34,898 nt of DNA, from NCBI GenBank assembly GCA_017409265.1, contig JAFQSY010000006.1, forward strand, positions 1 to 34,898, given 5' to 3'. The translations under genes were made by a program, and so were the position numbers. Source of the stretch: Clostridia bacterium (GTDB lineage: Bacteria; Bacillota; Clostridia; Oscillospirales; Acutalibacteraceae). Position 1 is the stretch's first letter. Every line of letters starts with the position of its first letter. The notes beneath the pieces are model-generated. The model was not told the DNA's origin. It ran no database searches and was given only the letters and a program-made list of their open reading frames with translations. Below, in pieces: positions 3,300-26,221 of this stretch.

Positions 3300-3725
3300 C
3301 TATTTGTTCAGCAAATAATCAATTCCTCTGAGATATCCGTCAAAGCCGAGTCCGATAAATGATTTTTCGCATGCCATGCCTGCATACGATATTTGTCTGA
3401 AATCTTCTCTTTTTGAAACATCGGAAATATGAATCTCGACGGCGGGAATTGCAACGGATTTAAGTGCATCGAGAATGGCAACGCTTGTGTGAGTGTAAGC
3501 GGCAGGGTTTATAACAATTCCGTCATAATTTCCGTAAGCGGCCTGAATTTCGTCAACTATGCTGCCTTCGTGGTTTGACTGAAAAATTTTAACATCAAAG
3601 TCTTTTTCTTTTGCGTAGCTTTCAATCATAGTGCAGAGGTCTGCATAGGTGTTTTTACCGTATATATCAGGTTCTCTGATACCGAGCATATTAAGATTCG
3701 GTCCGTTTATTACAAGGATACGCAT
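3300..3725 (-). CDS. aroQ: Type II 3-dehydroquinate dehydratase
   Basis: A 141-residue protein that removes water from 3-dehydroquinate to form 3-dehydroshikimate, the third shikimate-pathway step. Type II signatures are clear: the N-terminal NGPNLNMLG, the flexible catalytic loop REPDIYG with the essential Tyr (Y22) and Arg (R17), NHEGSIVDEI, NPAAYTHTS, and the EIHISD segment with the catalytic His. Length matches the small dodecameric type II family, which is unrelated to AroD. It is the last gene of the aromatic operon; its start lies 16 bases inside the end of aroEK, with AGGAGG correctly placed, so coupled translation is likely. Confidence 0.95.
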   Translation of the reverse strand: MRILVINGPNLNMLGIREPDIYGKNTYADLCTMIESYAKEKDFDVKIFQSNHEGSIVDEIQAAYGNYDGIVINPAAYTHTSVAILDALKSVAIPAVEIHISDVSKREDFRQISYAGMACEKSFIGLGFDGYLRGIDYLLNK

Positions 3726-4933
3726 TCTGTAATCCTCCTGACTGTTATTTCGGGGTCGGGGTCAACTTCAACTGTAAAATCCGCAGTTTCAAGGTAGAGA
3801 GGAAGTCTTTGAGCAAACATCTGCTCAAGCACTTCGGGACTTTTTGAGAGCGGTCTGCCGTCGGTTGCAAGTCCCTCAACGGGAGCTTTTAGGAAGATGA
3901 CGGTTGAATTTTCACGCAGAGCAATTCTGTTTTCCTCTTTGAGAATTGCGCCGCCGCCGGTTGCGATAATTTTGCCTGCGCCTTTACCTGCAAGGAGCAC
4001 AGCCTCTGTTTCACGTCTGCGAAACTCCGTTTCGCCGTATTCTGCAAAAATATCGGGAATGCTTTTTCCCGAAGCATCAGCAACCATTGTGTCGGTATCA
4101 ACGCATTCGCGCCCTGTTTTCTCTGAAAGCAAAGTGGCGGTGGTGGATTTGCCGCAGCCGGGCATGCCGACAAGAACAATGTTTTTTTGTTCGGATATTA
4201 TTGCATTGTAAATTTCATCAATACGTGAAAGGGGAATTGACTCACCCGTAAAGATTTCGGCGGCACGAAGAGCCTGCGCAACAAGCATATAAAGCCCGTT
4301 TATGCAGTCGATGCCGAGCTTCTCTGCATCAAGCAGAAAAACGGTTCTTGCAGGATTGTAAATCAAATCAAGCGCCTTGCGGCATTTTGTGAATTTTGAA
4401 AGGTCAATGAGCCTTTCTCCGTTGTTGGGATACATGCCGACGGGCGTTGTGTTGACGATGATATCTGCATCGTAATGGTGGCTGATGTTTCCGTAATTTT
4501 CTTCTCCCGAGCGGGAAACAACAACAATTTCCTTTGCGCCTTCATCCCTTGCAACGTGCTGCACGGTAAGGCTTGCACCGCCCGAGCCGAGAATAAGAAC
4601 TTTTTTATCCTTGAAATCGCAGCCGCATTTATTTGCCATATAAAGGAATCCGAAATAATCGGTGTTATCGCCGTAAAGAGTTCCGTCTTTTCTGCGGATA
4701 ACGGTATTGACGCTGCCGACCTTTTTTGCTGTTTCGGAAAGCTCATCACAGCGGTTGTATGCTTCAATTTTGTATGGAATCGTAACATTGAAGCCATTCA
4801 ATGCCGTATTGTCAAAAAAGCTGTCAAGACATTCGGGCTCCATGGGGTATAGCTTATATTCATAATCACAAAGATGCGAATGTATCTGCGGCGAAAGCGA
4901 GTGACCGAGCTTTCTGCCTAAAAGTCCGTACAT
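3710..4933 (-). CDS. aroE-aroK: Shikimate dehydrogenase / shikimate kinase fusion
   Basis: A 407-residue bifunctional protein joining two pathway steps. Residues 1 to about 245 are an AroE shikimate dehydrogenase: SLSP (12-15) binds shikimate, K55 in NVTIPYK and D92 in DNTD are the catalytic Lys/Asp pair, and GSGGAS (116-121) starts the NADP fold. From about 251 follows an AroK/AroL shikimate kinase: Walker A GMPGCGKST (256-264), the DTD metal/substrate motif (279-281), FRRRE (304-308), GGG (326-328) and the lid GRPL (359-362). Both active sites look intact, so dehydroshikimate can be reduced and phosphorylated by one polypeptide. GGAGGAATAACC precedes the ATG, which lies 2 bases after the pheA stop. 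The fusion joint lies around residues 243-250. Confidence 0.93.
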   Translation of the reverse strand: MYGLLGRKLGHSLSPQIHSHLCDYEYKLYPMEPECLDSFFDNTALNGFNVTIPYKIEAYNRCDELSETAKKVGSVNTVIRRKDGTLYGDNTDYFGFLYMANKCGCDFKDKKVLILGSGGASLTVQHVARDEGAKEIVVVSRSGEENYGNISHHYDADIIVNTTPVGMYPNNGERLIDLSKFTKCRKALDLIYNPARTVFLLDAEKLGIDCINGLYMLVAQALRAAEIFTGESIPLSRIDEIYNAIISEQKNIVLVGMPGCGKSTTATLLSEKTGRECVDTDTMVADASGKSIPDIFAEYGETEFRRRETEAVLLAGKGAGKIIATGGGAILKEENRIALRENSTVIFLKAPVEGLATDGRPLSKSPEVLEQMFAQRLPLYLETADFTVEVDPDPEITVRRITECVSL

Positions 4934-4935
4934 GG

Positions 4936-6072
4936 TTATTCCTCCGTGTAGCTTCCGAGGTAGCTGAATTGCTCCGAATCATTTTCAAGCTCGCTGAGAA
5001 GCGCCTTGAGGTTATCCGAATAAACAGAAGCATCGATATCAAAATAAAACATAAATTCAAAGTTGCTGCCGGGTATCGGCCGACTTTCAAGCTTTGTCAT
5101 GTTGAGTCCGAGAGCAGCAAATCTTGAAAGGATATTATAAAGTGAGCCGGGCTCATGGGGAATGGTCATCATAAAGCTTGTCTTTTTTGCGCCGGGATAA
5201 ATTTCAGGCTTCTTTGAAATGCAGATAAAACGGGTGTAGTTGTTATCTGTGTTCTGAACGCCTGTTTTAAGCACTTTAAGACCGTAAAGCTCTGCACTTT
5301 CCTTCGAGCCGATTGAAGCACAGTCTTTTCTGCCGCTTGCGGCAACCATTTTGGCGGCAACAGCGGTGTTTTCGCATGGAGTAATCTTAACTCCGAGAGA
5401 TGCGAGAAATTCCGAGCATTGATTGAGTGCCTGCTCATGAGAGAAGACCTCTTTGATATCGGAAAGCTCAACGCCCTCGGGAGCAAGGAGTGAATGCCTT
5501 ATAAAGAGCTTGAGGCTGTGGACAATGTAGAATTTGTGTTCCTTCATCAGGTCATAAACCTTGTTTACCGTTCCTGCCGTGCTGTTTTCAACGGGAAGAA
5601 CTCCGTAGCGGCAAAGACCGCTGTCAACAGCCTTAAATACATCATTAAAACCTCTGCAGTAAACGATTGAGGGGTAGGGGAACATCTTGTCGCAGGCGAA
5701 CTGAGCATAAGCGCCTTCAACGCCCTGACATGCAACGACAGCTCTGTCGGGACGCTCACAGGGGGTGGAAGCTGTCACATCTTCAATCAGCTTTGAAAGG
5801 CTTGATTGAGGATTGATAATTCTTTTCTGATGTGAACGGCTGACATTAAAGATTGTTTCATAAAGAGTTTTGGTGTAGCCCTGAAGCTCATCGGGCATGC
5901 CTGCCGTTACGCTGCACAGAACTTCTCTTTCACGTTCTTTATTAAAAACGGGAAGATGGTTTTCTTTCTTGTATTTTGCAATATTTGCGGCGATTTCCAT
6001 TCGCTCCTTGAAGAGCTTTGTAAGCTCACCGTCAATTCTGTCAATATCGTTTCTCAATTCTTTTATATCCAT
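4936..6072 (-). CDS. pheA: Bifunctional chorismate mutase / prephenate dehydratase
   Basis: A 378-residue P-protein that converts chorismate to prephenate and then to phenylpyruvate, committing carbon to phenylalanine. Three parts are visible. Residues 1 to about 85 are a helical AroQ-type chorismate mutase with conserved Arg/Lys/Glu positions (for example R7 and ERMEIA). Then comes a prephenate dehydratase domain, with the GVEGAYAQFA start, VLPVENSTAGTV and the catalytic N-x-TRF motif. The C-terminal ACT domain carries an ESRP motif and normally gives allosteric phenylalanine inhibition. Enzyme-level feedback would thus add to the leader-peptide control of the operon. It sits 10 bases after aroC. 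Confidence 0.95.
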   Translation of the reverse strand: MDIKELRNDIDRIDGELTKLFKERMEIAANIAKYKKENHLPVFNKEREREVLCSVTAGMPDELQGYTKTLYETIFNVSRSHQKRIINPQSSLSKLIEDVTASTPCERPDRAVVACQGVEGAYAQFACDKMFPYPSIVYCRGFNDVFKAVDSGLCRYGVLPVENSTAGTVNKVYDLMKEHKFYIVHSLKLFIRHSLLAPEGVELSDIKEVFSHEQALNQCSEFLASLGVKITPCENTAVAAKMVAASGRKDCASIGSKESAELYGLKVLKTGVQNTDNNYTRFICISKKPEIYPGAKKTSFMMTIPHEPGSLYNILSRFAALGLNMTKLESRPIPGSNFEFMFYFDIDASVYSDNLKALLSELENDSEQFSYLGSYTEE

Positions 6073-6082
6073 TGGTAGAACC

Positions 6083-7159
6083 TCATTTTAAAATATAATC
6101 CGCAATAACAATTGCCGCTGCAGCCTCAACGCATGGAACAGCTCTCGGCACAATGCAGGGGTCATGTCTGCCTCCGATGACGAGTTTTTCTTCGCTGCCC
6201 GTTTCGGCGTTGACGGATTGCTGTTCTCTGCCGATTGACGGAGTGGGTTTTACTGCACATCTGAAAACTATCGGCATACCCGACGAAATACCGCCGAGGA
6301 TACCGCCGTGATTGTTTGTTACGGTTTTAATTTTACCGTCAGCGCTTATGAAATCATCGTTGTTCTGACTGCCGAGAAGCCTGCTGCCCTCAAAGCCCGA
6401 GCCAAATTCAATGCCCTTGACTGCGGGAATACCGAAAACGGCGTAGCTCAATTTGTTTTCAATTCCGTCAAAAATCGGGTCACCTATCCCTGCGGACATT
6501 CCGAGAATCGCACATTCGATAGTGCCGCCGACGGAATCTCCGTTGCCCTTTGCATCATAAATCTCTTTTCTCATCATTTCACCCTGCTTATCATCAATAA
6601 CGGGAAATGATTTTTTGAGAATAGCATCAAAATCATCTGCGCTGACATTAACGGGGTCAAATCTTTTGTCATCTGTTTTGCCGATTGACGAAATATGTGC
6701 GCCGATGCGAATACCTTTTTCTTCAAGCATCTGCATGCAAACTGCACCTGCAAAGCATAGGGGAGCGGTCAGCCTGCCGCTGAAGTTACCGCCACCTCGG
6801 ATATCGTTAAATCCGTTGTGTTTCATCATTGCGGCAAAATCGCTGTGTGAGGGGCGGGGCAGCTTGCGCAGTTTATCATAATCGCCGGAGCGTGTGTTTG
6901 TATTTTCAATAACGGCGCAGAGGGGAGCACCGCAGGTAACATTATCAACAACACCGGAAAGAATTTTCACCTCGTCTGCCTCTTTTCTCGGGGTTGAGAG
7001 GTCATTCTGACCCGGTGCACGTCTTGCCATGAATGCAGCGGTTTTTTCGGTGTCAATATTAAAGCCTGCGGGCAGACCATCAATCACAACGCCGATAGCA
7101 TTGGAGTGGGATTGACCAAAAATGGTTATTTTAATGTTGTTTCCAAAGTTACAGGACAC
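6083..7159 (-). CDS. aroC: Chorismate synthase
   Basis: A 358-residue enzyme making chorismate from EPSP with reduced FMN, the seventh shikimate step. Signatures are the N-terminal SCNFGNNIKITIFGQSH (first conserved His retained, but GESHG is changed to GQSHS), RRAPGQND, RPSHSD, the FMN-site GGGNFSGRLTA, and the C-terminal RHDPC block. I place the start at a GTG (7159) because the family begins exactly here and GGGAGG lies 8 bases upstream. The frame is open to 7246, but those 29 extra residues lie inside aroA and match nothing in the family. With this start it overlaps the aroA end by 11 bases. Confidence 0.93.
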   Translation of the reverse strand: MSCNFGNNIKITIFGQSHSNAIGVVIDGLPAGFNIDTEKTAAFMARRAPGQNDLSTPRKEADEVKILSGVVDNVTCGAPLCAVIENTNTRSGDYDKLRKLPRPSHSDFAAMMKHNGFNDIRGGGNFSGRLTAPLCFAGAVCMQMLEEKGIRIGAHISSIGKTDDKRFDPVNVSADDFDAILKKSFPVIDDKQGEMMRKEIYDAKGNGDSVGGTIECAILGMSAGIGDPIFDGIENKLSYAVFGIPAVKGIEFGSGFEGSRLLGSQNNDDFISADGKIKTVTNNHGGILGGISSGMPIVFRCAVKPTPSIGREQQSVNAETGSEEKLVIGGRHDPCIVPRAVPCVEAAAAIVIADYILK

Positions 7160-8378
7160 GGACTTTTCCTCCCAGCTTGTTAAAATCATCAAAAAATGCA
7201 GGATATGATTTATTGACTGCCTCGGCTTGCCTGATGATAACATCACCTTGGCACTTCAGCGATGCAACGGCTGCCGCCATTGCGATTCTGTGGTCATTGA
7301 AAGACGGTGTTTCGCCGCCCGAAAGGATTTTTTTGCCGTTTATTACCATACCGTCATCGGTTTCGGCTATATCGCCGCCGAGCGAGCGAATCATGTTTAC
7401 GGTGGTCTTTATTCTGTCGCTCTCTTTTATGCGGAGTCTTTCAGCGTTATAAATTACGGTTTCGCCCTCGGCTGTTGCAGCAATTGTCGCTATAATGGGT
7501 ACGGCATCGGGAATATCCGATGCATCAATTCTGCAGCCGTGAAGCGAGGATAAATTCGCTTTATAGCATCCGTTCTTTTCGGTAATATCTGCACCCATCT
7601 TCTTGAGTACGTCAACGATTGCCTTGTCACCCTGTGTCGAATCGAGGTTAAGCCCCGTGACTTCCGCACCCATGCAGAGAGGGAAAGCGGCGTTTGACCA
7701 ATCCGCTTCAACGGTAAAGTCACACCCCATAAGGGGGCTTGAATTTATATAAAAAGTATTATTTTCTTCTTTAATATTAGCTCCGAAGGTGCGCAAAACC
7801 TCAAGTGTTATGTCAATATAGGGTCTTGACTGCACGGGAGGCAGCAGCTTTATTCTTCCGCCGCCGAGAAACGAAAGAGCCATTAGCAGACCCGTCACAA
7901 ACTGTGAGCTGACATCACCGCGAAGAGTGTATTCACCTGCCGAAATTTTTCCCGAAACATCAAGAGGAAAGCTGTCGGAGATATTTGCACCCATGCGTAT
8001 TAATTCTTCTTTAAGAGGTGAAAGCGGTCTTTCGGGGAGTCTGCCCGAGCCGCTTATTTGAGTTTTGATGCCCAAAGCGCAGATTACGGGCAGAAGGAAG
8101 CGTATGGTCGAGCCGCTTTCGCCGCAGTCAATCCTTGCGCTTTCGGGCAAAGCATCAATCGGCGTTACCGTATAGATAACACCGTTTTTTTCTATTCCTG
8201 CACCGAGGCTTTTAAGGCATTCAACTGTTGCCTCAATATCCGCAGAGGTAGTATTTATTCTGATTTGGCTTTTGCCCTTTGCAAGACAGGCGCAGATAAG
8301 CGCTCTGTGTGCAAAGGATTTTGAGGCTATTCCCTCAATGCTGCCCGAAACAGGCGAGGGAGTTATTCGGATATCCAT
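7149..8378 (-). CDS. aroA: 5-enolpyruvylshikimate-3-phosphate synthase
   Basis: A 409-residue enzyme that transfers enolpyruvyl from PEP to shikimate-3-phosphate. Two-domain inside-out fold motifs are present: SKSFAHRAL (19-27) for substrate binding, the PEP-loop GESGSTIRF (87-95), LPERPLSPL, SSQFVTGLLMAL, the hinge region around ERLRIKESDRI and the late DHRIAMA. The loop keeps Gly at the position equivalent to G96 of the E. coli enzyme. It therefore lacks the G-to-A change typical of glyphosate-tolerant class II enzymes, though tolerance cannot be judged from this alone. Start and aroB stop share one base (TAATG), indicating tight coupling. Confidence 0.95.
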   Translation of the reverse strand: MDIRITPSPVSGSIEGIASKSFAHRALICACLAKGKSQIRINTTSADIEATVECLKSLGAGIEKNGVIYTVTPIDALPESARIDCGESGSTIRFLLPVICALGIKTQISGSGRLPERPLSPLKEELIRMGANISDSFPLDVSGKISAGEYTLRGDVSSQFVTGLLMALSFLGGGRIKLLPPVQSRPYIDITLEVLRTFGANIKEENNTFYINSSPLMGCDFTVEADWSNAAFPLCMGAEVTGLNLDSTQGDKAIVDVLKKMGADITEKNGCYKANLSSLHGCRIDASDIPDAVPIIATIAATAEGETVIYNAERLRIKESDRIKTTVNMIRSLGGDIAETDDGMVINGKKILSGGETPSFNDHRIAMAAAVASLKCQGDVIIRQAEAVNKSYPAFFDDFNKLGGKVRVL

Positions 8379-9427
8379 TATTTATACTCCGCTATTTTAT
8401 AAAGCTCTTCAATCGGTATTTTTTTCAGTACGCATTCACCCATGTTTTGTGGCACAACAAAATTAATTGTACCGCCTGTACGTTTTTTGTCGGAAAGGGC
8501 AACGTCGGCGAGGTCATGGGGAGCAAAATCGCATTCAACGGGGAGATTGTTGTTTTTATTCGCATCAATAATTGCCTGAGTGCAGTTCTCATCGCTCCAG
8601 CCGAGTGCGTGCGATGCTTTTGCGGCAATAACCATGCCGACTGCAACGGCGCTGCCGTGAGAAATTTCAAAATTGCTGCATTTCTCAATTGAATGAGCCA
8701 TCGTGTGACCGAAGTTGAGAAGCTGTCTGTCACCCTTGTCAAACTCGTCCTTTGCAACAACATCTCTTTTAAGCTCAACGCAGCGTGCAATGATGCTTTC
8801 AATATTTAATTTTACATCGCCGCCGCTTACTTTGTCAAATAAAGCCTTATCAAAGATAACGCCGTATTTTATGACCTCTGCCATGCCGTCTGCAAAAATG
8901 TTCTCGGGCAAAGTGCCGAGGGTAAGGGTGTCACAGAGCACGAGTGCAGGCTGATAGAATGCACCCAGCAGATTCTTGCCTGCTTTGAGGTTTACGGCAG
9001 TTTTACCGCCGACGGAGGAATCAACCGCCGCAAGCAGAGTTGTCGGCACCTGAACAAATTCAATGCCTCTCAAATAAAGAGAAGATGCAAGACCCACCAT
9101 ATCGCCCGTAACGCCGCCGCCGAGAGCAACGGCAAAATCGCTGCGGGTGAGCTTGTTTTCAGCCATAAATTCAATCAGCTCAAATAGTGTTTCCTTGCTT
9201 TTTGATTCTTCTCCTGCGGGGAATATAAATTCAAGTGTATCAATTCCTGCTTTCTCAAGGCTCGCCTTTGTTTCATCAAGCCAAAGCGGAGCAACATTGC
9301 TGTCCGTCACGATAACAGCTCTGTTTTTACCGAACAGAGAAACGCATCTTTCACCGAGAGAGGAGAGAATGCCTTCTCCGATGATAACATCATATTCCTT
9401 TGATGCATTAACTTTGATAATTTCCAT
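8378..9427 (-). CDS. aroB: 3-dehydroquinate synthase
   Basis: A 349-residue NAD- and metal-dependent cyclase that turns DAHP into 3-dehydroquinate. Family motifs are in order: GEESKS, the nucleotide site GGGVTGDMVGL, the PTTLLAAVDSSVGGKTAVN block, FADGMAEVIKYG with a metal-ligand Glu, and NFGHTMAHSIE with metal-ligand His residues. Length is typical. It lies 8 bases after tyrA and overlaps aroA by one base. Confidence 0.96.
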   Translation of the reverse strand: MEIIKVNASKEYDVIIGEGILSSLGERCVSLFGKNRAVIVTDSNVAPLWLDETKASLEKAGIDTLEFIFPAGEESKSKETLFELIEFMAENKLTRSDFAVALGGGVTGDMVGLASSLYLRGIEFVQVPTTLLAAVDSSVGGKTAVNLKAGKNLLGAFYQPALVLCDTLTLGTLPENIFADGMAEVIKYGVIFDKALFDKVSGGDVKLNIESIIARCVELKRDVVAKDEFDKGDRQLLNFGHTMAHSIEKCSNFEISHGSAVAVGMVIAAKASHALGWSDENCTQAIIDANKNNNLPVECDFAPHDLADVALSDKKRTGGTINFVVPQNMGECVLKKIPIEELYKIAEYK

Positions 9428-9435
9428 TTTAAAAC

Positions 9436-10266
9436 CTACTTTGCCTGTTTTTTGCTGTCGGTGCCTTCTTTGAGAAGGGAAACAAGTCCTTCTCTGTCGT
9501 CAGCCTTAAGAGCGGTGCTGTATTCGTTCAGACGCTCAACAAGAAAATCAATTTCATTTATAAGATTATCCTTATTTTCAAAGAAAAGCTCTGTCCACAT
9601 TTTTTCGTTGAGCTTTGATACTCTTGTTAAATCTCTGTAACTGCCTGCGGAAAAGCCTTTCTGTTTAACAGCTGTATGACTTTTTACATAAGCATTTGAA
9701 ATAATATGCGGAAGTTGTGATGTGAACGCTATTACTTTATCATGTTCTTCGGGAGTTGTAAAGTTAATTGCGCCAAATCCTGCATCACTGAGCACATTTC
9801 GCAGCTTTTCAAGGACTCTGATATCCGTATTTTCTTTCGGAGTAACAATCATTGTTGCGTTTTTGAAAAGATTGCCTCTCGATGAGTTGAAGCCCGAAAA
9901 CTGTGTGCCTGCCATGGGGTGTGCACCGATAAATATGAATCCGTTTTTTTCTGCGAGCTTTTCGCATGGAGCGCAAATCGGTCTTTTAACGCCGCCGCAG
10001 TCTGCAACGATTGCTCCCTTTTTGATTTTGTCGGAATATATTTCAACAAACTCAACAGTTGCCTGCGGATAGAGGGCAATGAATATCATATCGCATTCGC
10101 CGATGTTGCTTTCGTTCATTTCGTCTGTAATTGCACCTACCATTTTTGCCGCAAGCAAAGAGCTTCTGTTACGGTCAAGACCGAAAACCTCATGCTTTCC
10201 GCTGTCAGAAAGTGCTCTTGCAAGTGAGCCGCCTATGAGTCCCAAGCCTGCTACACCTATTTTCAT
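9436..10266 (-). CDS. tyrA: Prephenate dehydrogenase
   Basis: A 276-residue NAD(P)-dependent enzyme that oxidatively decarboxylates prephenate to 4-hydroxyphenylpyruvate, the tyrosine branch. It has an N-terminal Rossmann motif GLGLIGGS (7-14), GAHPMAGTQ with the catalytic His, and FTSQLPH followed by the helical dimer domain. It is shorter than TyrA proteins with a C-terminal ACT domain, so the enzyme has no visible tyrosine-binding regulatory module. Control would come from the first enzyme and the transcript leader. It lies 9 bases after aroF. Confidence 0.93.
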   Translation of the reverse strand: MKIGVAGLGLIGGSLARALSDSGKHEVFGLDRNRSSLLAAKMVGAITDEMNESNIGECDMIFIALYPQATVEFVEIYSDKIKKGAIVADCGGVKRPICAPCEKLAEKNGFIFIGAHPMAGTQFSGFNSSRGNLFKNATMIVTPKENTDIRVLEKLRNVLSDAGFGAINFTTPEEHDKVIAFTSQLPHIISNAYVKSHTAVKQKGFSAGSYRDLTRVSKLNEKMWTELFFENKDNLINEIDFLVERLNEYSTALKADDREGLVSLLKEGTDSKKQAK

Positions 10267-10275
10267 AATATCACC

Positions 10276-11283
10276 TTAAAATTTTGTCATAATTTCTCTG
10301 ATTGCGTTCGCTTCCTTAACAACCTTTGCAAATTCCTCGGGCTTGAGTGCCTGGGGGCCGTCGCAAAGAGCATGAGCCGGGTCATTGTGCACCTCAATCA
10401 TTAGTCCGTCAGCGCCTGCAGCAACCGCTGCAAGAGCGAGGGGACGAACCATTCTTGCCATGCCTGCTGCGTGGCTGGGATCTGCAATGATGGGAAGGTG
10501 TGTTTTCTCTTTGAGAAGCGCAATTGCAGAAATATCCATTGTGTTTCTTGTGTAATGCTCAAAGGTTCTGATACCTCTTTCGCAGAGCATAACCTTGCTG
10601 TTGCCGCCTGCCATGATGTATTCTGCGCTCATGAGCAGCTCTTCCATTGTTGCGGAAAGACCTCTTTTGAGGAGAATGGGCTTGTCTGTTTTACCGAGCT
10701 CTTTGAGAAGCTCGAAATTCTGCATATTTCTTGCGCCGACCTGAATAACATCAACATTTTCAAAGAGGGGAAGATGCGAGAGATCCATAATTTCCGTAAC
10801 GATGGGAGCGCCTGTTTCCGCCTTTGCCTGTTCAAGCAGTCCAAGACCCTCTGCTCTCATGCCCTGGAATGCATAGGGTGAAGTTCTGGGTTTGAAAGCA
10901 CCTCCGCGCAGGAAGTTTGCGCCTGCAGCCTTGATATCATTTGCGATTGAACAAATCTGCTCGGGCGATTCAACGGAGCAGGGTCCTGCGATGAACTGAA
11001 AGTTACCGCCGCCGATTTTATGACCGCAGATATCAATTACCGTGTCGTCGGGATGAAATTTTCTGTTTGCGCTTTTATAAGGTTCGCTGATTCGTGCAAC
11101 GTTGTTAACAATATTAAGTCCGCTGATAAGGTCGATATCAACATGGCTTGTGTCGCCGACAAGACCGAGGATTGTGTCGTACTGACCTTCGCTGCGATGA
11201 ATTTCAAGATTAAGGCTCTTGAGCCATTCAATAAGATTCTGAAGCTGGGCTTCGTCTGTTCCTTTTTTGATTGATACTACCAT
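10276..11283 (-). CDS. aroF: 3-deoxy-D-arabino-heptulosonate 7-phosphate (DAHP) synthase, type I-beta
   Basis: A 335-residue first enzyme of the shikimate pathway, condensing PEP and erythrose-4-phosphate. It has an N-terminal ferredoxin-like domain (about 1-70) followed by the KDSA-like TIM barrel. Barrel motifs are FIAGPCSVES, FLRGGAFKPRTSPYAFQG, LKRG near residue 200, the CERGIRTFE metal/substrate block and DPSHAAG. In Thermotoga-type enzymes the N-terminal domain mediates tyrosine inhibition, so allosteric control is plausible (family knowledge, not shown here). It is the first structural gene of the operon, with TGGAGGT upstream and directly downstream of the attenuator. Confidence 0.95.
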   Translation of the reverse strand: MVVSIKKGTDEAQLQNLIEWLKSLNLEIHRSEGQYDTILGLVGDTSHVDIDLISGLNIVNNVARISEPYKSANRKFHPDDTVIDICGHKIGGGNFQFIAGPCSVESPEQICSIANDIKAAGANFLRGGAFKPRTSPYAFQGMRAEGLGLLEQAKAETGAPIVTEIMDLSHLPLFENVDVIQVGARNMQNFELLKELGKTDKPILLKRGLSATMEELLMSAEYIMAGGNSKVMLCERGIRTFEHYTRNTMDISAIALLKEKTHLPIIADPSHAAGMARMVRPLALAAVAAGADGLMIEVHNDPAHALCDGPQALKPEEFAKVVKEANAIREIMTKF

Positions 11284-11307: not shown

Positions 11308-11345
11308 AAAAAATAACCCCGCAGTGTAAATTTCACTGCGGGGTG
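11308..11345 (-). terminator. Attenuator terminator in the aro operon leader
   Basis: A minus-strand 10-bp GC-rich stem (arms 11334-11343 and 11317-11326, 7-base loop) is followed by TTATTTTTT. It lies between the leader peptide stop and the aroF ribosome site, so it would stop transcription before the structural genes unless prevented. Confidence 0.88.
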
Positions 11346-11359
11346 TTACGAACCTCATT

Positions 11360-11440
11360 AACGTTTTTCAGCAAAACTTACCAGACCCTATCAAATTACT
11401 TGATAAAGTAAAAGTAAAAATATGCTGCTGTGAAAACGTT
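11360..11440 (-). promoter_or_regulatory. Leader RNA alternative pairing around the Tyr/Phe codons
   Basis: The segment 11426-11440, in leader codons 4-8, can pair with 11360-11374 after the leader stop: 8 bp of AAAACGTT plus 5 bp of TGCTG with a small internal loop. This stem would enclose the Tyr/Phe codons. A ribosome stalled at codons 10-15 would cover its 5' arm and free the 3' arm. I could not identify a convincing antiterminator pairing with the terminator stem. Confidence 0.5.
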
Positions 11441-11449
11441 TTTATTCAT
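11396..11449 (-). CDS. Aromatic leader peptide (MNKNVFTAAYFYFYFIK)
   Basis: A 17-codon gene too short for standard gene calling. It starts with ATG at 11449, 8 bases after a GAGG ribosome site, and ends with TAA at 11396-11398. Seven of 17 residues are Tyr or Phe, including an uninterrupted YFYFYF at residues 10-15; there is no Trp. It sits about 25 bases after the predicted transcription start and 50 bases before an intrinsic terminator ahead of aroF. That is the architecture of amino-acid leader peptides such as those of E. coli pheA and trp. Ribosome stalling when charged tRNA-Phe or tRNA-Tyr is scarce would allow readthrough. The match between codon content and operon products (Phe, Tyr) makes the call strong. 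Confidence 0.85.
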   Translation of the reverse strand: MNKNVFTAAYFYFYFIK

Positions 11450-11481
11450 TGAAATAACCTCGTTTGTTATTTGTTGGATAT

Positions 11482-11510
11482 AGAATAGCACTTCGAAATT
11501 GATTTGTCAA
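11482..11510 (-). promoter_or_regulatory. Promoter of the aro operon
   Basis: A minus-strand consensus TTGACA (11505-11510) and TATTCT (11482-11487) are separated by 17 bases. It lies about 30 bases upstream of the leader peptide ATG. Confidence 0.85.
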
Positions 11511-11521
11511 TACTTTTTCGC

Positions 11522-11548
11522 AAAAAACTTTAGCGATTTAAAGCTTTT
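11522..11548 (-). terminator. Weak terminator overlapping the cysteine hydrolase stop
   Basis: On the minus strand AAAGCTTTA pairs with TAAAGTTTT across a 6-base loop and continues in a T-run. The arm contains the hydrolase stop codon. It would separate the upstream two-gene unit from the aro promoter 12 bases further on. Confidence 0.55.
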
Positions 11549-12054
11549 ATCTGGCAAACTGTCATGGCATCAAGTGCACGCTCATGGCTTTCGGGGGTAA
11601 CGCCTGCGCAGCAGGCTGCATCAACAATAATCGGAGTTCCGGGCAGATATGCTTTTATGAGCATTGCGTTTGAGATAACGCAGATATCCGTGCAAAGACC
11701 GATTAAGGTTATACTATCGATTTTTTCTTCATAGGTATCGTATGCTTTTAAAAGCTGACCGAGGGCAACGCTGCCGAAGGTGGGTTTGTCAATTGGTTCT
11801 TCCTTGCGGAGGGCATCAAGCTCGGGATGAATCTGCCATCCGTCGGTGCCTTTTATGCAATGCTCAACGGGAAGATTTTTGCCCTCCTGCGTTGACATAT
11901 AATCGGCTTCGTGAGTATCTCTCGTAAAAAGCACTCTGCCGTCAAAATTCTTGATTTTTTCTTTTACTGCAGGCAGTATTGCAACAGCCTCTTTTGTTCC
12001 GAGAGCGCCGTCAATAAAATCGTTCTGCATATCAACAACAATCAAAAAATTCAT
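11530..12054 (-). CDS. Isochorismatase/nicotinamidase-family cysteine hydrolase
   Basis: A 174-residue cytosolic amidase-like enzyme. The catalytic triad of the family is visible as D8 (VDMQNDF), K90 (DKPTFGS) and the nucleophile C125 in GLCTDICV, with the preceding cis-peptide region. Nicotinamidases also hold a metal through Asp and three His. D46, H48 and H65 are present, but the middle His appears to be missing (Ser/Met in its place), so nicotinamide as substrate is uncertain. ATG 12054 is preferred over an in-frame GTG three codons upstream because AGGTGA then has normal spacing. It starts 9 bases after the kinase-sortase gene and probably shares its transcript. Confidence 0.8.
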   Translation of the reverse strand: MNFLIVVDMQNDFIDGALGTKEAVAILPAVKEKIKNFDGRVLFTRDTHEADYMSTQEGKNLPVEHCIKGTDGWQIHPELDALRKEEPIDKPTFGSVALGQLLKAYDTYEEKIDSITLIGLCTDICVISNAMLIKAYLPGTPIIVDAACCAGVTPESHERALDAMTVCQIKALNR

Positions 12055-12063
12055 AATAATCAC

Positions 12064-13926
12064 CTATTCAAAAAGTATAATATCGTTCTCATACGGGTTT
12101 TCCATACGTTTTGCATCGTAATATGCCTGCGGAAATTTCGGGACGGGATTTTCCTTTGCAAGCGACATATCAACCTCGGGATTTTCGCCGTCACGCAGGA
12201 GCCTGCCTACAACAACAAGCCTTGCATCTTCAAAATCGTAGCAGCAGGTGGAGAGGGTGATAATCTTATCATTTTCGTTTATGTCAACACCCGTTGAATA
12301 AAGTTTTCGTTTGTCAATCTCGGTTATATAATTTTTGAACCGTTCATTGCCTGCGTTTACGAAAATGTAATTGAAAATCTTTCCGTTATCATCGCTTTCC
12401 TTGCTGTTGGAAATGAAAACGGCATAGATCTTAAAAGTGTAGTCACCGTAAAGGGTGCTCATGCCGATAAGCGGAGCTTTTTTGAAGCCTTCAATCTCTC
12501 TGTACCGCTCAAGAGTGCCGAAGATTTTATCGTCATGCCGCATGTTGTGGCCGTAGAGTACCGTGTTTCGGCTCAATTGACGCAGTCCGCAGCGATAGTC
12601 AAAGAAAGGAACGCCGTAATTTGTGTATTTTCCGTAAATATCCCGACGCAGGTATTTGTCGTTATCCTCTGCCTGAACAACGGAATAATTTATGTTCATT
12701 TCAGGGATTGAAATCCAGCCTGCAAAGTCGGAATTGATTGCGTAAAGGTCAGAAAATGCAGGATTCATTCCGTCGGGAAATTCAACATCGGGGTATTTGT
12801 TTTTTATCTCAATCCACGGGTCAACCATGGGCGTTGTTGTTACTTGCGAAACAAGCTCTGCAAGACTTTCGGATTGTTTATCCTCTTTGAAAGGTTCGAT
12901 TATATAATAGTTTATGAGAACGGCGGCGCCCGCAATCAGAACGATAATTGCCGTAATAAGCACGATTTTTCGTTTTATATCGTTATTCACGGCATGATTT
13001 TTTGGTTTATCCGTAAGTTTGCCGCCGATATCCGATATCAGCTCATCAGCCGAGGAATATCTTTCGTCTTTATCAAGAGCGAGAGCCTTTTCAATGATTG
13101 TTTTTTCGCGTGTACCGATGCTTTCGGGGAAACGCAGAGCCTTGCCCTTGTTTCTTTCGGCGGCTGACGGCGGAAGAAATCCCGTTACCGCTTCGTAAAG
13201 AATAGCGCCGATTGCGTAAACATCGGTGAATGATCCGCAATGCTTTGCGCCAAACTGTTTTTCGGGAGCGTCAAACGGTGTTGAAATGGTTTTCGGCGGA
13301 TAGGAATAACCTGTGAGTGCTGTGATTTTTTCATCTGACATGATTATAGTATAGGGTGAGATGCTGCCGTGCCATTTACCTGCCGAAGCAAGCTTTTTGG
13401 CGCAGTCAATAATGGGAGAGAGGAGCGATACCGCTCTTGAAAACGTCATTGTTTTACCGTTTCCGATTGATGATGAAAGCGGAGTGCCGTTGTTTATTGC
13501 ACATGCATAATAGAAGGTCGAATTTTCCGCAAAGCAGTCAATAAAATCAAGCACGCTTGTTTTGGAAACGGCACAGAGCTTGAGATAATGCGCATAATAT
13601 GCGGCAATTTCCTTGTCGCCCTTTGCGGCGCAGGTTTCGTTGTTATATTTTATTATCATTTCGCCCGGCAAACGATAGATAAGCTTTTCGTGAAGATATT
13701 CGGAGATTTTCACACGCTGTTTGTTTCGGACATCCAAAGCATAATAAGAGGTAAAAACTTTGCCCTTTGAACTGACACCGCCGACGATATAGCGGTTGTT
13801 GAGTCTTGTGCCGACAGGAAGGCAGTTATCGGGATTTTTTTCGGCATGACTGCCGCCGAATCCGCAGCTTGGACATACCGCAGTGTCATCGGGGCATTCA
13901 TTAAGGCAGAAAATGCATCGTTTCAT
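12064..13926 (-). CDS. Zinc ribbon - pseudokinase - membrane helix - class B sortase fusion protein
   Basis: A 620-residue four-part protein. A zinc ribbon has C4/C7 and C18/C21. A protein-kinase-like domain (about 45-300) keeps the fold markers APE (220-222) and DVYAIGAILYEAVTG. It has lost the catalytic residues: VAIK Lys reads Ser (VKISEY, S75), HRD...N reads HGS...T (186-193), and DFG reads LTG (204-206). A single hydrophobic helix follows (about 319-342). The outer C-terminal part (about 390-580) is a class B sortase with catalytic H460 (LYGHN), C561 (TLSTC) and R569. The kinase part should be cytoplasmic and the transpeptidase outside. Sortase B usually anchors surface proteins to peptidoglycan; no obvious substrate gene is adjacent. 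AAGGAGGT precedes the ATG. Confidence 0.85.
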   Translation of the reverse strand: MKRCIFCLNECPDDTAVCPSCGFGGSHAEKNPDNCLPVGTRLNNRYIVGGVSSKGKVFTSYYALDVRNKQRVKISEYLHEKLIYRLPGEMIIKYNNETCAAKGDKEIAAYYAHYLKLCAVSKTSVLDFIDCFAENSTFYYACAINNGTPLSSSIGNGKTMTFSRAVSLLSPIIDCAKKLASAGKWHGSISPYTIIMSDEKITALTGYSYPPKTISTPFDAPEKQFGAKHCGSFTDVYAIGAILYEAVTGFLPPSAAERNKGKALRFPESIGTREKTIIEKALALDKDERYSSADELISDIGGKLTDKPKNHAVNNDIKRKIVLITAIIVLIAGAAVLINYYIIEPFKEDKQSESLAELVSQVTTTPMVDPWIEIKNKYPDVEFPDGMNPAFSDLYAINSDFAGWISIPEMNINYSVVQAEDNDKYLRRDIYGKYTNYGVPFFDYRCGLRQLSRNTVLYGHNMRHDDKIFGTLERYREIEGFKKAPLIGMSTLYGDYTFKIYAVFISNSKESDDNGKIFNYIFVNAGNERFKNYITEIDKRKLYSTGVDINENDKIITLSTCCYDFEDARLVVVGRLLRDGENPEVDMSLAKENPVPKFPQAYYDAKRMENPYENDIILFE

Positions 13927-15655: not shown

Positions 15656-15731
15656 TGGTGGACCCAAAGGGATTTGAACCCTCGACCTTTCGGATGCGAA
15701 CCGAACGCTCTCCCAGCTGAGCTATGGGCCC
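15656..15731 (-). tRNA. tRNA-Ala (anticodon CGC)
   Basis: A 76-base tRNA with encoded CCA. The acceptor GGGCCCA/TGGGTCC contains the G3-U70 wobble pair that identifies alanine tRNAs. The loop TTCGCAT gives anticodon CGC (reads GCG). A short GCCTC/GAGGC hairpin (15636-15649) downstream is a weak terminator candidate. Confidence 0.95.
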
Positions 15732-25872: not shown

Positions 25873-26221
25873 GGGGATGAAAGGATTTCGACGGGGAATC
25901 TGAGCCCGGATAAGCGAGTAGCGGTGCGGGACCGCTATAAAATCCGCAATTTTCAAATTTAAACGACAACAATAAAGTTGCTCTTGCTGCTTAATTAAGC
26001 AGCCGTCTCTGTGCGGAGGACTGCGGCCGCATAAGAGGCGTCGACAAGCAGTGAACGTGAACGGGTAACGGCGGATAGCCCGTCATGAATAATCTGTCTA
26101 CCAAGTGCCGAAGCCTGCCCGGCGGCGTCGGCATAAGGGAATGTCAATAGACGGGATACACTCGTAGAAAGTCCCTGCAAGGGTTTTTCGGACGCGGTTT
26201 CGATTACCGCCATCTCCACCA
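25873..26221 (+). ncRNA. ssrA: Transfer-messenger RNA (tmRNA)
   Basis: A 349-base one-piece tmRNA. The tRNA-like ends pair (GGGGATG 25873-25879 with CATCTCC 26211-26217) and carry an encoded CCA and a T-arm GCGGT-TTCGATT-ACCGC. The tag frame ends at TAA 25992-25994 and encodes a C-terminal NDNNKVALAA. The resume codon is probably the TCA at 25953 or close to it (upstream limit not certain). Pseudoknot-forming GC-rich segments follow. The tag end VALAA is typical of Firmicutes. No strong terminator is visible before the next gene. Confidence 0.95.

Follow-up and report, generated by a model that had tools for sequence, protein, structure and literature searches.

How does a clostridium adjust one operon, holding the shikimate pathway together with the phenylalanine and tyrosine branches, to the supply of both end products? 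The usual picture places leader peptides in Proteobacteria and T-boxes in Firmicutes. The question raised by the nucleotides just before aroF in the 34,898-nucleotide stretch of DNA analysed here (the window) is whether a single short peptide could read both amino acids for the whole pathway, as the original prediction had it.

The leader locus and its operon

The genes downstream of the leader lie on the minus strand as follows:

10276-11283, minus: aroF, DAHP synthase with a ferredoxin-like N domain (NF006421 and TIGR01361 over cut-off; PF00793, PF18152)
9436-10266, minus: tyrA, prephenate dehydrogenase (PF02153 and PF20463 over cut-off; NCBIfam models below theirs)
8378-9427, minus: aroB, 3-dehydroquinate synthase (TIGR01357 over cut-off)
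7149-8378, minus: aroA, EPSP synthase (TIGR01356 over cut-off)
6083-7246, minus: aroC, chorismate synthase (TIGR00033 over cut-off, match from residue 39)
4936-6072, minus: pheA, chorismate mutase / prephenate dehydratase (PF01817 and PF00800 over cut-off)
3710-4933, minus: aroE-aroK fusion, shikimate dehydrogenase and shikimate kinase (PF08501 and PF01202 over cut-off)
3300-3725, minus: aroQ, type II dehydroquinase (TIGR01088 over cut-off)

The order by NCBIfam and Pfam is aroF-tyrA-aroB-aroA-aroC-pheA-aroE/K-aroQ, then a lipid kinase gene, and these names cover the entire shikimate pathway and both of its branches, to Phe and to Tyr, the final transamination apart, which bears out the claim of a complete aromatic pathway operon. 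The listed GTG frame of aroC begins upstream of its profile match, and aroE-aroK is a single fused frame, AroE then AroK. Elsewhere the window holds a gene for a 620-aa sortase-domain protein (12064-13926, minus) upstream of an isochorismatase-like gene (11530-12063), two adjacent tRNA-Ser genes (1883-2103, anticodons GCT and TGA), a tRNA-Ala (CGC) gene at 15656-15731 and a tmRNA gene at 25873-26221 with the tag peptide DNNKVALAA.

The elements of the leader, whose terminator and T-run end upstream of the aroF start (ATG at 11283), are:

11482-11510, minus: promoter, TTGACA (11510-11505) and TATTCT (11487-11482), 17-nt spacer; TG precedes the -10
11458-11461, minus: Shine-Dalgarno (SD) GAGG of the leader peptide, 8 nt upstream of the ATG
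11396-11449, minus: leader peptide frame MNKNVFTAAYFYFYFIK, 17 codons plus TAA; ATG at 11449, stop at 11398-11396
11405-11422, minus: control codons 10-15, Y-F-Y-F-Y-F; 71 of 72 residues kept in 12 sequences
11360-11440, minus: 1:2 hairpin of the minimum-energy fold, holding the control codons and segment 2
11369-11381, minus: segment 2, GTAAGTTTTGCTG, common to 1:2 and to antiterminator 2:3
11326-11338, minus: segment 3, CAGTGAAATTTAC, comprising the end of the terminator 5' arm, the loop and the first 3'-arm base
11308-11344, minus: 3:4 intrinsic terminator (hairpin 11344-11316, 11 pairs) and T-run

The consensus promoter, the ribosome site and the 17-codon frame with YFYFYF at codons 10-15 were all found as predicted, and MNKNVFTAAYFYFYFIK contains four Phe, three Tyr and no Trp. 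Among 12 near relatives TTGACA-17-TATTCT is present in 11 and the -10 is TATTGT in one, and a promoter match of at least 10 of 12 positions occurs in 145 of 177 leader-positive regions of the wider sample (below) versus 3 of 177 shuffled ones (best site in each). The consensus scan is weak alone, giving 5 promoter-like sites in 2 kb versus 3.5 expected and 2 terminator-like sites versus 2.2 expected. The RNA would start near 11475. In the comparison of codons among 12 sequences (window included, AroF at least 91% identical) the single departure from the run at codons 10-15 is Tyr to Cys at codon 14 in locus L007, and there is synonymous variation at codon 10 (TAT/TAC) and codon 11 (TTT/TTC).

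Three mutually exclusive pairings

The folding energy of the 171-nt leader is -51.2 kcal/mol (z -6.2, none of 200 shuffles as good), and its minimum-energy hairpin does enclose the control codons, as the alternative pairing of the original prediction was said to do. The terminator hairpin has 8 G-C pairs among its 11 and is followed by TATTTTTTAT; the prediction of a terminator and T-run before aroF was right, and the length it gave, 10 bp, was not. The suggested folding search for an antiterminator identified a 13-bp helix, 2:3, in which 11381-11369 pairs with 11338-11326 and segment 3 reaches into the terminator loop; the conservation of that loop, GTGAAATTTAC, is explained by its use in the 2:3 pairing. 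On the minus strand 1:2, 2:3 and 3:4 share parts and are mutually exclusive. The locus has, in sum, a short SD-preceded frame rich in codons of the end products, an intrinsic terminator between leader and first gene and, by folding and comparison, an antiterminator incompatible with terminator and 1:2 hairpin alike.

Alignment A1 (16 close sequences, the window and 15 relatives) has 2:3 formed in all 202 cells, versus 38-53% for slid versions, while 91.6% of 475 cells are paired in the 1:2 hairpin and 97.2% of 176 in the 3:4 terminator. The covariation that had been proposed as a check is there in part: changes on both sides occur in 8 of the 11 pairs of 3:4 and 7 of the 30 of 1:2, but in none of the 13 of 2:3, where 9 pairs are invariant across these 16 sequences and the covariation measures equal those of shuffles.

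Pairing was also measured in 173 of 232 aroF upstream regions (below), selected for a core of 8 codons with no fewer than 4 Phe/Tyr, a terminator more stable than -6 kcal/mol and 15 nt between core and terminator. In distant loci the pairing letters vary and complementarity is retained. Duplex z values against shuffles were -2.08 for 2:3 and -3.11 for 1:2, versus -0.36 and -0.18 for the controls 1:3 and 2:4; a pairing of segment 1 with segment 3 is at chance in these loci and was rejected. Ranks against swapped segments were non-uniform for 2:3 (p 5e-31) and 1:2 (p 2e-67), and those of the controls did not depart from uniformity (p 0.31 for 1:3, 0.73 for 2:4), where the small p values are too small, since related loci are not independent, and the two controls carry equal relatedness. 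The window's own swap rank is exceptional for 1:2 (0.03) and unexceptional for 2:3 (0.40), that is, its segment 3 is paired equally well or better by 40% of the segment 2s taken from other loci, probably because GCTG (114 of 173) and CAG (116 of 173) are shared. Six of the 173 loci are at the lower level of 4 Phe/Tyr, and one of these, L108 on a contig labelled Spirochaetales, probably has no leader. The other orders of the class contributed 41 leader-positive loci, of which 37 could be used (L335, whose leader call is a false positive inside a T-box, having been left out); these gave z values of -2.52 (2:3), -2.97 (1:2) and 0.13 (1:3), with 2:4, a wrong pairing, somewhat off chance there (-0.79). 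At the level of sequence, then, the frame, the promoter and terminator sequences, and the three exclusive pairings with their conservation are established.

We consider it very likely that a ribosome-mediated transcription attenuator controls the aro operon, in the following way. A ribosome would translate the 17-codon leader while RNA polymerase moves ahead. When charged tRNA-Phe or tRNA-Tyr is short it would stall at codons 10-15, covering segment 1 and freeing segment 2, which would pair with segment 3 once that is made, so that no terminator forms and the whole operon is read. When both charged tRNAs are plentiful, the ribosome would finish and leave, segment 2 would refold on segment 1, and the 3:4 terminator would halt transcription before aroF. 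The alternating codons would act as an OR gate for a shortage of either end product. We infer from the anatomy that the leader is translated, that ribosomes stall in it and that the operon responds to both amino acids.

Simulated stalling, in which the RNA up to the terminator loop was folded with the bases under the ribosome held single-stranded (assumed footprint, 17 nt before and 13 nt after the first A-site base), is consistent with this scheme. For the window the probability of 2:3 is 0.05 in the absence of a ribosome and 0.07 when one is placed at codon 1 or at the stop, and it is 0.63-0.65 at codons 8-14 and 0.28 at codon 15; the fold shifts from 1:2 to 2:3 with the ribosome on codons 8-14 and not in the start- or stop-codon position, and the probability is already 0.44-0.54 at codons 4-7, upstream of the Phe/Tyr run. 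Over the 173 loci the mean probability is 0.33 free, 0.59 stalled at the core and 0.51 at codon 2. Stalled values exceed free ones by more than 0.05 in 117 loci, are lower by more than 0.05 in 12 and lie within 0.05 in 44, and core values are higher than those at codon 2 in 82 loci and lower in 39. The closeness of the codon-2 and core means makes the effect of position modest outside the window.

The high degree of structure in the leader would also suit a frame that is untranslated, with the T-rich tract and hairpins acting through an RNA-binding protein or small-molecule aptamer, or with a constitutive terminator. That reading is very improbable in view of the SD, the synonymous changes, the reading-frame specificity (below) and the two helices with segment 2 in common, which change in simulated folding when a ribosome sits on the Phe/Tyr codons. 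An Rfam search of the window's leader also gave no family at gathering score, the sub-threshold matches having E values of 0.33 or worse, and the T-box or other aptamer named at the outset as a possible explanation of the leader was not found.

Distribution and amino acid specificity of the leader

The aroF upstream regions came from genomes of the genus, order and class and from 80 titled contigs (including Angelakisella massiliensis, Sporobacter termitidis and Ruminococcus sp.). From 242 loci we removed L025-L027 (not taken as AroF) and L122 and L135 (short upstream), leaving 237, and then 5 with identical last 180 nt, leaving 232 dereplicated regions. The set was made up of the best AroF matches instead of being drawn at random, and it still includes near-identical loci (the 177 leaders below give 167 distinct peptides). 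A leader was called when, within 420 nt upstream, an SD precedes a frame of 8-60 codons with at least 5 Phe/Tyr in 8. By this rule 177 of the 232 regions have such a frame, as expected if homologues keep the Tyr/Phe codons. Applied to the reverse strand, the rule is satisfied in only 1 of 232; it is satisfied by 16 of 655 stretches drawn at random from these loci (some of which may overlap the leader) and by 3 of 696 shuffles. The best terminator-like hairpin lies 3' of the frame start in 167 of the 177 positive regions.

Positive regions make up 126 of the 156 from the order, with the leader present in 19 of its 20 sampled families, and 51 of the 76 from titled contigs. Among the 55 regions without a frame by the rule, L094 has a Phe/Tyr frame just outside the 420 nt and some with 4 of 8 (L018, L020, L212, L222, L230) look like weaker leaders. 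Twelve titled contigs are labelled as other phyla (Treponema, Spirochaet-, Bacteroid-, Coriobacteriia, Lentisphaerae, Kiritimatiellae, Victivallales), of which 11 are negative and L095 is positive; the other negatives among the titled contigs, 14 in number, have the label Clostridia or that of a family belonging to it. Outside the order but within the class, 18 of 27 near AroF relatives (L281 being too short) and 25 of 40 further ones satisfy the rule, and the leader is either old in the class or has spread with the operon.

Within the window's genus, a search of 45 genomes with model R1 gave matches in 14, of which 13 lie upstream of an AroF match and one, in G423, upstream of aroB; under the strict filters used there was no R1 match in G017, G024, G418 and G425, which have AroF. 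In G013 the AroF match covers the first 45 residues only, and a second R1 match overlaps the first on the other strand. G423 (75% complete, no AroF match) has the Phe/Tyr leader MNNIFATAYFYFYFCSEK and a terminator directly before aroB (L346:288-1501), with a 2:3 pairing of 10 bp. An AroF match was obtained in only 17 of the 45 genomes, and G006 and G011 have trpE and no AroF match; aromatic synthesis looks patchy in this genus.

The 177 peptides consist of 19.8% Phe, 13.4% Tyr and 0.3% Trp residues (12 Trp), and when all 190 amino acid pairs were ranked FY came first with 155 of 202 regions, the next being AF with 82. Phe and Tyr residues per 8-codon core number 6.2 in the SD frame versus 1.6 and 1.5 in the others (the core was chosen in the SD frame), and over whole frames the Tyr fraction is 0.146 in the SD frame versus 0.008 and 0.043 in the other two.

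An attenuator that senses Phe only or Tyr only, with the other residue a by-product of a T-rich, pairing-constrained tract, might be suspected from the excess of Phe over Tyr and from the two T-boxes that replace the leader (L021 and L024), which have UUC (Phe) at the specifier position as read from the alignment. We regard it as improbable: peptides with Phe only or Tyr only would pass the rule, yet all 177 leaders hold both and 166 have at least two of each; Tyr codons vary, at codon 10 among the close sequences and overall (TAT/TAC, 291 to 354 in the 177 leaders); and the alternation of the two residues exceeds that of a random order (4.57 versus 3.93 switches per leader). Sequence comparison thus supports the prediction that one peptide serves both amino acids, and we take the leader-peptide attenuator to be well supported and its dual Phe/Tyr input to be probable.

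An arrest peptide would sense free Phe or Tyr in the exit tunnel rather than tRNA charging, as TnaC senses free Trp in the ribosome exit tunnel. The peptide is hydrophobic and aromatic, and none of the 12 near relatives differs in the residues at codons 6, 9-13 and 15-17. Known arrest peptides generally keep fixed residues at fixed distances, unlike these variable peptides, whose length and sequence outside the run and between families differ while Phe/Tyr content stays; the logic would also be reversed, as arrest in plenty would free segment 2. We find this reading scarcely credible and prefer stalling for want of charged tRNA.

The absence of Trp codons could be put down to loss of Trp synthesis. 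This fits the window's genome (80% complete), in which trpE was not found, as it was not in 4 of 30 relatives with that genome counted, but the leaders of the trpE-positive G030 and G032 also lack Trp, and we rejected the explanation. In 80 genomes chosen from 171, a full-length trpE match (the partial match of G609 not counted as positive) is present in 10 of 24 with Trp in the leader versus 15 of 56 without (Fisher p 0.20); post hoc, with Trp inside the run only, trpE is found in 9 of 17 (p 0.07, same chosen genomes). Six leaders of distant Clostridia (L312, L313, L318, L322, L324, L332) are longer, with Trp inside the Phe/Tyr run, and several share an FSAGYLFCKK-like C-terminal stretch; such leaders are possibly three-input.

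T-boxes and other known systems

The T-box model RF00230 has no match in the window, and the Rfam Phe_leader model has none at gathering score and none listed up to E 10. Elsewhere in these genomes T-boxes are in use: of 20 pheS loci, 12 have one upstream by Rfam, that of the window's genome (L266) included, and a T-box motif by pattern precedes trpE in 2 of 4 loci. Before aroF, Rfam found them in 2 of 20 leader-negative loci scanned, L021 and L024, and pattern found the same two alone among the 232, and 3 among 40 class loci (L331, L334, L335). In this sample, therefore, the clade possesses T-boxes but rarely puts them in charge of the shared pathway. Their rarity at aroF may be explained by the number of tRNAs read, one for a T-box and potentially two for a leader peptide. 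More broadly, Clostridia may split aromatic sensing by number of inputs, an idea whose chances we judge evenly balanced: single-tRNA T-boxes would serve genes tied to one amino acid (pheST), and a two-input Phe/Tyr leader would serve the shikimate operon, be old in the class, follow the operon and not aroF, and perhaps gain Trp codons in Trp-making lineages.

Across a large group of bacteria, some of them gut inhabitants, a leader peptide is what commonly precedes the aromatic pathway, and T-boxes serve other genes of those genomes. Since leader and T-boxes occur in the same genomes, the choice between the two devices becomes a testable question. The proposed attenuator also allows a prediction of when these bacteria synthesize Phe and Tyr themselves, and the leader would be a natural two-input sensor.

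The closest known systems of proteobacterial type are pheL (pheA) and pheM (pheST) of E. coli, the Phe attenuators of the Rfam Phe_leader family. Like them, the window has a leader peptide with a Phe run, 1:2, 2:3 and 3:4 pairings and a terminator before the gene; unlike them, it interleaves Phe with Tyr, stands before aroF and a full shikimate operon and has no Rfam match. The T-box resembles the proposed leader in reading tRNA charging and controlling termination, and differs from it in having no match in the window. Leaders for several amino acids include E. coli thrL (Thr/Ile) and ilvL (Ile/Val/Leu); these and the ilvB uORF of Corynebacterium, a multi-amino-acid leader according to an excerpt of PMC11109978, share with the window codons for more than one end product and differ in amino acids and phyla. 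Gram-positive hosts are on record too, in excerpts that describe a His leader among 'regular' leader peptides of Firmicutes, in place of a T-box (PMC2965389), His attenuators in several Firmicutes lineages (PMC9413887) and a Leu-rich ilv attenuator in Staphylococcus aureus (PMC5794164), each for another amino acid and operon than here, and in the Bacillus cereus group a T-box is reported to precede an operon for tyrosine biosynthesis (PMC2494555). At aroF itself, the relevant part of PMC8632094 mentions an earlier hypothesis of an attenuator at E. coli aroF and gives the uORFC-13-1 motif before aroF in Acholeplasma, which like the window has promoter, RBS, start codon, Phe codon(s) and terminator and, unlike it, comprises 24 sequences from Acholeplasma and environmental DNA only, with at least one Phe and no Tyr named in that part.

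The claim that a dual sensor of this kind would be unusual was not supported: the leader is common before aroF among the sampled loci of the order and occurs in other orders, and candidate Phe/Tyr uORFs are already in print. Two such candidates at shikimate genes appear in the Fig. 6b legend of PMC6429828, Clostridium novyi being among the five source genomes given in the excerpt. Compared by description only, they are short Phe and Tyr frames at shikimate genes like that of the window and may belong to the same family; in contrast to the present analysis, neither an antiterminator nor a host or distribution is given in that legend. The open-access literature searched yielded no account of the complete attenuator, of its wide distribution or of the contrast between T-box and leader in one genome. 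The mechanism is an ordinary one, ribosome-mediated attenuation, multi-amino-acid leaders and candidate Phe/Tyr shikimate uORFs all being known already; what is notable beside these systems is the host range and the common use of the arrangement for a whole pathway.
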